The position numbers and the translations under genes are program-made. DNA of 64,000 bases. Source: Candidatus Krumholzibacteriota bacterium (GTDB lineage Bacteria > Krumholzibacteriota > Krumholzibacteriia > LZORAL124-64-63). The notes under the pieces were generated by a model. The model searched no databases. It was not told the origin of the DNA and was given only the letters and a program-made list of their open reading frames with translations. The DNA lies in contig JAJRZA010000076.1 in assembly GCA_024275485.1 (NCBI GenBank), forward strand, positions 1 to 64,000, written 5' to 3'. Below are positions 218 to 7,012 of the stretch, in pieces (the first letter of the stretch is position 1; each line of letters starts with the position of its first letter).

Positions 218-246
218 AATTACTAATTTAAAACAAATTAGTAATT
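218..246. promoter_or_regulatory. Perfect inverted repeat upstream of the fic promoter (operator candidate)
   Basis: AATTACTAATTT (218-229) and its exact reverse complement AAATTAGTAATT (235-246) are separated by five bases. The right arm abuts the -35 box at 248. A third copy, AATTAGTAAT (301-310), sits between the promoter and the ribosome binding site, facing an imperfect partner at about 285-294. Two dyads bracketing a promoter suggest autoregulation, plausibly by the C-terminal winged-helix region of the Fic protein itself. The regulator is inferred; the repeats are seen. Confidence 0.7.
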
Positions 247-247
247 C

Positions 248-276
248 TTGACTTGGGCCCGATTTCTCCGTATCAT
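248..276 (+). promoter_or_regulatory. Sigma-70-type promoter of the fic gene
   Basis: TTGACT (248-253) and TATCAT (271-276) are separated by exactly 17 bases; each matches the consensus at five of six positions. The start point should be near 283, so the longer reading frame opening with TTG at 248 cannot be the real start. Translation should begin at ATG 329, which has AAAGGA (317-322) just upstream. Confidence 0.75.
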
Positions 277-328
277 CATCCAAACTACTAAATTTACAGG
301 AATTAGTAATAAAACAAAAGGACCCATC

Positions 329-1696
329 ATGCGTCGGCCACCCACAGCTCCAACAATGTTGGAACTACTTACAAAACATATACATAACGACACTCCCGAC
401 AATGATCTGTTCTTACGCATCAACCGTGACTTCAACACCCCTGCACCGGAAGGCCGTTACCGGCATTGGCACAAACTCCAACATCTGAACCCACCAAACG
501 GATTGACACATGAAACATGGTGGATGGCCATCAAGTTGGCTCGAAGTGCAACCCTCAGGACATGGCCGCTGCAAGACACCAAAGGTCAGACATTCAATTT
601 CACCATGCCTGAAATCCTTCTCAAAATGGTGCACAGAATTGATCGGCGTGCCTCAGGTTCCATTGAAGGTGGCGACTTCCTGCCAGGTGAAACTGACAAG
701 CGTGCATTTCTGATGCGATCACTTCAAGAAGAAGCCATCACCTCCAGCCAACTGGAGGGAGCCGCCACCACCCGTAAAATTGCCAAAGAATTACTGCGCC
801 TGGAGAAAACCCCAAAAGACACAAGCCAACAAATGATTCTGAATAATTATCGCGGTATGCAATTCATCATCAACAATGCAAAACACCGGGCTCTTGATCC
901 GGAGATGATCTTCGAACTCCACGGTCTCCTGACCGAAGAAACCCTGGATGACGCTTCCGCCGTGGGCAGGTTTCGTCGGGACTCGGAAGAAATCGCAGTT
1001 GTTGACAATGATGGCACGGTGCTTCATGACCCACCGTCAGCCAGGGAACTCCCCACACGTCTTCAGGCCATGTGTGACTTTGCCAATGACGATACCGAGG
1101 AACCCTTTGTCCATCCAGTGATTCGATCGATCCTGCTGCATTTCTGGCTGGCCTATGACCATCCCTTTGTCGATGGAAATGGACGCACCGCCCGTGCCTT
1201 GTTCTATTGGTCCATGGCACGGCGAGGGTACTGGTTGATTGAATTCACTTCGATTTCGCGATTGCTGCTGCGCGCACGCGCACAGTACAACAGGTCTTTC
1301 CTGTATGTCGAATCCGACGAAAATGATGCAACCTATTTCATCCTGCACCAATGTCGAACCATCCAAAAGGCCATTGATGAATTGCACGACTATTTGGAAA
1401 ACAAGATGAAGGCGGCCCAGCGCAGTCGAAAAATATTACGCCACAGCGGGGCGATTGATCTCGGACTGAACCACCGTCAGCTGGCCCTGATCCGTCACGC
1501 TGTTGATCACCCGGGTATGCAATATTCCATCAGGTCGCACCGCATATATCACAACGTGAGCTACCAAACCGCTCGAACTGATCTTCTGCAAGTGGCGAAA
1601 CTTGATCTCCTGATCCAGACCAAAGTCGGTAAGGCTTTCTATTTTCTGGCTCCTGATGATCTGCACCAACGACTCAAACTGGATGGTGGAAGTTGA
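329..1696 (+). CDS. Fic family protein with N-terminal inhibitory motif and C-terminal HTH-like region
   Basis: A 455-residue Fic-domain protein. Fic enzymes usually transfer AMP (or another nucleotide) from a nucleotide donor to target hydroxyls. The signature HPFVDGNGR is at residues 278-286, with catalytic His278. S139-x-x-x-E143-G144 matches the (S/T)xxxE(G/N) autoinhibitory helix, here N-terminal to the core (class II), so the enzyme is probably kept in check in cis. The last 80 or so residues resemble the winged-helix tail common in stand-alone Fic proteins, which fits the palindromes around the promoter. The start at ATG 329 is chosen because the promoter lies over the longer N-terminus. 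No antitoxin-sized partner gene is adjacent. Target unknown. Confidence 0.9.
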   Translation: MRRPPTAPTMLELLTKHIHNDTPDNDLFLRINRDFNTPAPEGRYRHWHKLQHLNPPNGLTHETWWMAIKLARSATLRTWPLQDTKGQTFNFTMPEILLKMVHRIDRRASGSIEGGDFLPGETDKRAFLMRSLQEEAITSSQLEGAATTRKIAKELLRLEKTPKDTSQQMILNNYRGMQFIINNAKHRALDPEMIFELHGLLTEETLDDASAVGRFRRDSEEIAVVDNDGTVLHDPPSARELPTRLQAMCDFANDDTEEPFVHPVIRSILLHFWLAYDHPFVDGNGRTARALFYWSMARRGYWLIEFTSISRLLLRARAQYNRSFLYVESDENDATYFILHQCRTIQKAIDELHDYLENKMKAAQRSRKILRHSGAIDLGLNHRQLALIRHAVDHPGMQYSIRSHRIYHNVSYQTARTDLLQVAKLDLLIQTKVGKAFYFLAPDDLHQRLKLDGGS

Positions 1697-4894: not shown

Positions 4895-7012
4895 TCAAAC
4901 CAGACAATCCATGGCCTTCAGCTCATCGAGCAGATCTTCCACCAGGGATGTGGCGTATTCCTGCTGCTTGGCGCCGGCCGCCAGAACCAGATCCTGGGCC
5001 AAAGCCACAATGGTGCCGGCGTGCACATTCAGGGCCCCACCCTCCAGGCTTTTGGCTTCCTGGGCCACGAAACCGAAATCATAGTTGTCAATGGCTCCGA
5101 CGATGGTCTTGAGTCGTTCCCGGGAATCACTCATGAACAATCCCACAATTTCAACAGCCAGATCCACGTCCCCGTCCATTTGGGTCAGGAGGTTGGCCAT
5201 GGTAAATGGCAGGGGTTCGCCCTTGTTGGCAACCAGTTCGCCCGTGGCCATCACCCGAAGCATGGCCTCGTGGATGAGCTCGGTGCTGATGGGTTTGGGG
5301 ATATAGTCGTTCATCCCCGCGGCCAAACAGTTTTTCCGGTCCTGTCGGGTGGCATGAGCCGTCATCGCAATGATGGGTACCTCGGTGTTGAATTCTCCAG
5401 CCTCGCCCGCACGGATCTTTTTGGTGGCCCCAAGGCCCCCAAGACCCGGCATTTGAATGTCCATAAAGACCAGATCGAATTCATCCTCCGATAGGATATC
5501 CAGAGCTTCCTGTCCGCCGTTGACCGACTGGGCCGAGTAGCCCAGTTTGCGCAGCATGCCCAAGGCCACCTTTTGGTTGACGATATTGTCCTCCACCAGG
5601 AGGATTCTCATTTCAACGATCGGTGCAGCCGCTGGCTCCTCGACCTTGGCCCGGGGTTCTTCCACCTCATTATTAACCGCCACCTGATCCTGGCTGGCCA
5701 AATCGAACCGCGTCACAAAACCAAACACCGAACCTTTTCCCAGCTCGCTGCTTACGGTCAAGGATCCACCCATTATTTCCGCCAATTGTCTGCTGATGAC
5801 CAAACCCAGCCCGGAACCGCTCGACTCACGGTTCACTGGGGAATCGCCCTGGGAAAAAGTTTGGAACAGGGTTTCAATTTTATCGGGCGCAATACCGCAA
5901 CCTGTATCTGCAACCTGGAATTCAATGCTCGTCAACTGGCCTTGGTCCTCAATCTGGTTCAATGATACGGTCACACTCCCGGAGGAGGTGAAATTCAAGG
6001 CATTGGCCACCAGATTGACCAGGATTTGCCTCACTCGATCAGGATCTCCCACCACACATTCCGGCAAATCGTCAGGCATTTCCAAATTCAGGTCCAAGCC
6101 CTTTTCCCTGGCTTGAAAACGATATGTTTCGATCACTTCATTGACCAAACCCGGCAAAACGAAAACCACCTTTTCCAGCTCCAGCTTTCCGGCTTCGATT
6201 TTTGAAAAATCCAGAATATCGTTGACCACGCGCATCAAGGATTTGGCGCTGCGCTGGGCAATTTCCGCCGTTTCTTTCTGTTTTTCGTTGAGGTCCATAT
6301 CCACCAACAGCTCTATCATGCCAATGACCGCATTCAAGGGCGTGCGGATTTCATGGCTCACATTGGCCACAAACTGGCTTTTGGCCTGGTTGGCGCCGCA
6401 GGCATCTTCGGCCTGGCGATTGACCTGCCTCATGGCTTCTTCCAGCTCTTCATATGATTGGCGGATTTCTTTGGTGCGTTCTTCAACCCTGGCTTCCAGG
6501 GTGGCATTGAGGTCTTCCAGTTCGGCCTGGGCGGTAACCTGGTTCGAAATATCCCGTACAAAAGCAACCACCAGATCCTGCTCAGAGTCGCCCAAACGAA
6601 AAGCGGAAATGTTGACGGCAAGAACCTCACCCGATGCGGTCACGGTCTGAACTGGAAACTTGTTGAGGGTTCCATCATGCAAGACATCGTGCATGGCCTT
6701 GCGAAACTCCTGCACCTTGTCCTCGGGAAAAAGGTTCTCCTGCTTCATGCCCAGCAAGTCGTCTTCGCTGTAGCCCAGCAGCTCGCAGGCAGCCTTGTTG
6801 ATGAGCTGGATAATACCAGTCTGGCCTTCAACAAGGAAAATGGCGTCCTGGGATTCCCGAAATACACTCTCATAGATGGTGTCCGAACCCTTGGCGGTTT
6901 TCAAATGGTCCATGAGGGATTGATAGTGGTTGTCAACATCCCCACGAGCGGTCTCCAGGGATGCTATCAAACGTTCCAGTGGTTCAACGGGAATTTGGGC
7001 GTCATCCCACAT
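4895..7012 (-). CDS. Cytoplasmic hybrid sensor histidine kinase (PAS-HK-REC-degenerate Hpt)
   Basis: A 705-residue hybrid kinase with no membrane segment or signal peptide. In order: short N-terminal helix, PAS domain (about 45-160), coiled coil, HisKA with phospho-acceptor His220 in [10 protein letters not shown], HATPase (N box near 337, DTGCGIA, GSGLGL), receiver with Asp518 in FMDIQMP and Lys573, and an Hpt-like four-helix tail (about 600-705). The Hpt signature HSLKG is replaced by K654-SLEG, so the expected phosphorelay His is missing. ATG 7012 is preferred over TTG 7039 because AGGAAA lies just ahead of it. The gene follows the feo operon on the same strand after about 100 bases. No partner regulator is adjacent. 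Confidence 0.92.

Follow-up and report, generated by a model that had tools for sequence, protein, structure and literature searches.

The fic gene of a Candidatus Krumholzibacteriota bacterium appears to be limited twice, a reading given roughly 80% probability: an inhibitory helix would restrain the activity of the Fic protein, and a Fic dimer bound to two upstream dyads, O1 and O2, would repress the gene's own promoter. The DNA analysed, referred to below as the window, is a stretch of 64,000 nucleotides, and fic is the first gene of its contig. Autorepression is well supported by sequence comparison, and in this branch of the family the C-terminal domain very probably represses its own gene in a sequence-specific manner, through a code that can be read.

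The gene occupies positions 329-1696 of the forward strand (ATG at 329, stop codon at 1694-1696) and encodes a protein of 455 residues, P0001. Both hallmarks of class II Fic proteins are present: HxFx(D/E)GNGRxxR as HPFVDGNGRTAR (residues 278-289; 1160-1195, forward strand) and, N-terminal to it, (S/T)xxxE(G/N) as SSQLEG (residues 139-144; 743-760, forward strand). In an alignment of 44 rows, the key active-site residues and S139, E143 and G144 of the inhibitory motif are invariant. Pfam Fic matches with E 4e-19, Fic_N falls below its cut-off, and the PADLOC SoFic profile matches residues 125-440 with E 5.4e-39. The NCBIfam SoFic equivalog NF046030 reaches 39.6 bits, far below its curated cut-off of 550, so the protein is SoFic-like and not SoFic. 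By its sequence it belongs to the SoFic-like class II Fic proteins, as a single-chain enzyme in which the active-site motif and the autoinhibitory motif are both intact. The AlphaFold2 model (mean pLDDT 88.5, pTM 0.83) places a winged helix at residues 382-440 (1472-1648, forward strand); within it, model and sequence comparison locate a recognition helix at residues 412-424 (1562-1600, forward strand) that begins with Tyr412-Gln413. The winged-helix-like C-terminal region and the autoinhibitory motif that the initial annotation had read into the protein are both borne out, the former as a prediction of the model.

Upstream of fic, the DNA is AT-rich. It holds a promoter-like TTGACT-N17-TATCAT at 248-276 of the forward strand (-35 TTGACT from 248, -10 TATCAT at 271-276; 10 of 12 matches), which taken alone is at chance level (2 found against 2.0 expected), and a likely ribosome-binding site, AAGGA, read from the sequence at 318-322 of the same strand. 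O1 (218-246) has perfect 12-bp arms at 218-229 and 235-246 around a 5-nt loop and ends one base upstream of the -35 box. It contains TACTAA (221-226) and TTAGTA (238-243), separated by 11 nucleotides. O2 (284-310) lies at the expected transcription start and has TACTAA at 286-291 and TTAGTA at 303-308. The two dyads are therefore the same element, TACTAA-N11-TTAGTA, at 221-243 and 286-308, with half-sites 17 bp apart centre to centre within each dyad and dyad centres 65 bp apart. The promoter sits between them. The initial annotation was right about the perfect repeat one base before the -35 box and about dyads bracketing the promoter, which is clear here, with O1 before TTGACT and O2 after TATCAT. 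It also placed the second dyad correctly, but in calling it imperfect it missed the exact half-sites that make it the same element as O1.

Chance palindromes in AT-rich DNA are an extremely unlikely explanation. The base composition of the region and the chance-level promoter match are compatible with it, but not even one exact TACTAA-N11-TTAGTA arose in 20,000 dinucleotide shuffles of 151-328, and the twin sites are kept in relatives, as described below. Across the whole window, O1 and O2, both exact, are the only sites with up to two mismatches (0.18 expected), and two sites were reached in 2 of 100 shuffles. In the 4-Mb genome to which the window belongs, they are the sole exact copies. Allowing two mismatches yields 12 sites there (two exact, none with one mismatch and ten with two), against 192 for the reversed control. 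The element is private to fic in this genome, and a regulon reaching beyond fic was discarded, as these counts give no sign of other targets.

Reading O1 or O2 as RNA hairpins, acting as terminator or attenuator, is very improbable too. O1 folds well as RNA (-7.7 kcal/mol, z -6.6), but its place is ahead of the promoter; shuffled sequences fold as well as O2 with the leader does (z 0.13), and a search for a terminator-like site there found none. Beside the window's fic, where a small antitoxin gene as in VbhT/VbhA or Sofic/AS1 was looked for, there are only short, unsupported open reading frames. A group II intron end may lie at 65-140 (Rfam RF00029, 35.2 bits, below the gathering score of 40; E 1e-4), and the contig may break just upstream of fic because of it.

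Close Fic relatives are rare in the phylum: at E 1e-60, four of 80 genomes have one, counting that of the window; a fifth, distant relative appears at 1e-20 (G033). The three other close relatives (L004, L005 and L006/L008, the last two being one gene) show 44-69% core identity. The initial annotation had proposed looking for the same dyads upstream of orthologues as a check on autorepression, and the idea survived it. Upstream of fic, L004, L005 and L008 each have a pair of TACTAA-N11-TTAGTA dyads; one member of each pair is exact and its partner has 0, 1 or 2 mismatches, so that the four phylum genes together carry six exact dyads, one with one mismatch and one with two. In L004 the dyads bracket a TTGACA/TTGACT promoter, as in the window. 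L005 has its upper dyad far ahead of a -35-like box and its lower dyad overlapping the -10; around the L008 dyads, no sequence was convincing as a promoter. Over 58 genomes the exact pattern has seven sites, and six lie ahead of these fic genes. The control, with the pattern reversed, has eight, all elsewhere; since it is as frequent, the evidence lies in the placement of the dyads and not in their number. The one exact site away from fic (G052, L062), inside an open reading frame with no fic nearby, was taken as chance. A fixed DNA loop between two repressors was also rejected: the dyads are 65, 57, 64 and 81 bp apart in the four members, so helical phase is not constant. Separately, the closest relative (L006/L008, G030) lacks about 27 residues ahead of the Fic active site (query 212-238), with the frame unbroken.

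The wider comparison drew on 52 relatives from a search of genome contigs and on 393 genomes from one Bacteroidota order, which gave 20 matches, L031 among them for a second time. Left out before dyads were counted were L002 and L003 (weak matches from the window's own genome), L007 (distant), L032 (broken frame) and the fragments L056, L058 and L059; the counts cover 52 loci, the window's clade included, and with the 19 new loci 71. A dyad score of 12 is reached upstream of 27 of the 52 fic genes, compared with 8 of the 126 remaining genes of these loci, related loci being non-independent, and the best dyad is equalled by at least one of 40 shuffles in 21 of the 52. Dyad sequence varies by clade. 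The core of the window's operator, CTAA-N11-TTAG, occurs ten times in 8 of the 52 loci (0.23 in shuffles, at most 2), and all other spacings of 3 to 19 bp together give four occurrences.

Those eight loci are exactly the ones whose recognition helix starts with Tyr-Gln or Asn-Gln. Tyr412 pairs with TTAGTA in 16 of 16 half-sites and Asn412 with TTAGGA in 20 of 24. Mycobacterial and actinobacterial members with Lys-Gln helices (L010, L011) are without the element. The second sample of 19 loci agrees with this relation and separates less sharply: at the ten specified bases, its four Asn-Gln loci have 1, 1, 2 and 2 mismatches, and 6 of the 15 others also fall within two (the Gln-Met locus L098 exactly, one with one mismatch and four with two). 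Pooled over all 71 loci, the discovery set included, the association has p 9e-8.

Relatedness explains part of this link. Across 40 loci, the similarity of operators is tied more closely to identity in the Fic core (partial 0.44) than to identity in the helix (partial 0.24, permutation p 0.001). When the tree is built from the Fic core only (residues 40-360), Asn-Gln appears in scattered places, with six changes, at least four of them forced. Within a mixed Bacteroidota clade, CTAA-N11-TTAG stands upstream of all three Asn-Gln genes and none of the six Asn-Phe genes, all six of which have a TTGAAACTTC-type dyad within one mismatch; core identity between the two groups is 71-85%, no lower than the 73-83% found among the Asn-Phe proteins themselves. 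The window's protein has only 39-42% core identity with the eight Asn-Gln proteins, yet the half-site core is common to them. Dyad and recognition helix change together, which makes Fic itself the likely binder and is the best evidence available; it points to the dyad being read by Fic's own recognition helix. The initial annotation's suggestion that expression and activity may both be self-limited draws support from this co-variation, the conserved dyads, the intact motifs and the precedent of CccR, considered below.

Another DNA-binding protein of the cell could instead bind the dyads and control fic, leaving the Fic winged helix to regulate the enzyme only. In favour of such an arrangement, which is rather unlikely here, the available text on EcSofic reports that its C-terminal domain controls toxicity through contacts with the catalytic domain (PMC12249575). 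A separate regulator, however, would have to accompany fic across phyla and shift its site with each change of recognition helix, and the exact element occurs in the window's genome at fic only.

In many spirochaete and Bacteroidota relatives, the dyads also mark the edges of the gene. Upstream dyad DNA is repeated in direct orientation in 24 of the 71 loci, as exact words of 16-48 nt (for example in L019, L020, L034, L041, L044 and L054), and, counted from the end of the fic stop codon, 23 of the 24 repeats begin between -23 and +21. The final fic codons of Treponema bryantii (L019), EIRGN and the stop, lie within the repeat. Ten of 13 genomes tested contain a 22-bp core; eight of the ten have it as a pair spaced by 1353-1374 bp, a distance matching the length of fic, and G482 has one solo copy in addition. 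In Treponema the core occurs in 31 of 196 genomes. The control gave zero in both cases. The solo copy in G482 (L116), a spirochaete-type dyad just upstream of another gene with fic elsewhere in the genome, may be a scar or a second target.

L125 comes from a genome with no Fic at 1e-30 (G633). Its left flank matches L012 up to and including the first dyad (81%), and its right flank does so from the second dyad onwards (82%); between these L012-like flanks L125 has a single dyad and no fic. L125, L127 and L128, all from Treponema, are empty sites with flanks joined at one dyad, ahead of the type I restriction gene hsdR. Type I restriction neighbours are frequent overall, HSDR_N being present in 7 of the 66 neighbours on the downstream side and N6_Mtase in 8 of the 69 on the upstream side. 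In L122 and L142, another gene, which we take to be AAA ATPase-like (L148 1768-3171), follows the dyad where L019 has fic, and accessory genes have possibly been swapped at the dyad there. Thirteen of 30 Treponema dyad loci are without a Fic motif. Among these, L141 matches the fic 3' end and is cut by the contig edge, and L124, L128 and L135 lie near contig ends, which leaves nine interior loci; in eight of the nine genomes concerned, as assembled, no Fic relative was found at E 1e-30. These patterns suggest that the operator has a second role in other clades, as the boundary of a fic gene that is gained and lost.

Concerted evolution of the 5' and 3' dyad copies was rejected, as within-locus similarity exceeds the best between-locus similarity in only 14 of 36 loci. 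Two further loci deserve mention. In L034, the promoter, dyad and terminator of fic are present a second time at 6207-6391, 2 kb downstream of the intact unit, but with no fic between them; this resembles a deletion scar. On a Vibrio alginolyticus plasmid (L069), a family member sits beside a gene annotated as a baseplate protein; this is perhaps a phage-plasmid.

It might be argued from the direct repeats at the stop codon and from the empty L012-like site that the window's dyads, too, are ends or target sites of a mobile fic unit and not operators. This is improbable. No 3' dyad copy was found at the window's fic or at its three phylum relatives, so the boundary role does not explain the window dyads, both of which lie at the promoter. 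A mobile unit would also leave the recognition-helix link unexplained, and the roles of operator and mobile end are compatible.

Under the preferred reading of double self-limitation, the SSQLEG helix would be expected, from its effect in the family, to obstruct ATP binding in an active site that is otherwise intact. The C-terminal winged helices of a Fic dimer would bind each TACTAA-N11-TTAGTA dyad and, with O1 abutting the -35 box and O2 covering the expected start, occupied dyads would exclude RNA polymerase. Repression would be lifted when Fic is titrated or reshaped; by analogy with Sofic, AMPylation of a host target and growth arrest would then follow, probably directed against phage. 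A phage-defence role of the window's protein is an inference from that analogy. The available text on EcSofic reports that ATP binding moves the C-terminal domain and that this domain is required for toxicity (PMC12249575); a movement of this type could couple DNA release to activation.

A broader proposal is more tentative, possible though doubtful as a whole. It holds that this Fic family has a private operator under a code in which the first two recognition-helix residues set the half-site, helix and operator having switched together several times, and that among spirochaete and Bacteroidota members the palindrome doubles as the boundary of a unit that is inserted and lost precisely (palindrome-fic-palindrome, with one palindrome left at the empty site). 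If the code is true, neighbouring fic genes need not cross-repress; if the reading of the palindrome as a cassette edge is true, the repressor recognises the ends of its own cassette. A readable code would make operators findable by sequence and permit a direct test by a two-residue swap. The matter bears on how single-gene defence Fic enzymes stay silent and are then released, and raises the question of whether phage DNA or nucleotide state lifts repression. The 2025 EcSofic paper, in its available text, calls for work on activation during infection (PMC12249575).

An autorepressing Fic protein is already known from one experimental case, CccR; what is new here is the operator layout and the helix-operator relation. 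In the literature searched, which covers few subscription journals, neither the N11 twin dyads nor the helix relation nor the 3' copies were found described. SoFic/Sofic (PADLOC SoFic; EcSofic, PMC12249575; 3EQX, 3ZCN), from the available descriptions, is likewise a class II Fic protein with a C-terminal domain, and the window's model matches its fold over residues 82-442, C-terminal part included (Z 27.8, rmsd 5.0). In contrast to the window, no operator is described for Sofic in the accessible text, and a paper of 2023 (PMC10628234) states that SoFic had not been shown to bind DNA. CbFic2 of Coxiella burnetii (PMC10628234; 8CIL) is described in the same text as a class II Fic with a C-terminal DeoR-type HTH, in which DNA binding favours dimerisation and alters activity. 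The window's model matches it over 82-444, again with the C-terminal part (Z 26.0, rmsd 7.6). CbFic2 differs in that it was assayed with random DNA, and the accessible text describes no promoter operator.

The nearest parallel in working is CccR of Yersinia pseudotuberculosis, a class II Fic protein whose C-terminal HTH, according to the available text (PMC9755527), binds inverted repeats near its own -35/-10 and represses, as supported by EMSA, footprinting and 3.3-fold derepression. The same text describes CccR as a secreted T6SS effector acting on FtsZ. The window's protein shares the order of Fic domain and then, in the model, C-terminal HTH, together with inverted repeats at its own -35/-10 region. 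Its Fic model matches CccR (7XUX) over 82-360 (Z 27.5, rmsd 2.5), a match of the Fic core only, with the C-terminal domain outside it. The CccR operator is one pair of 10-bp boxes, AGATAATCAT-N26-ATGATAATCT, whereas the window has two complete TACTAA-N11-TTAGTA dyads; because half-site and spacing differ, the window's Fic protein is CccR-like in working and not a CccR.
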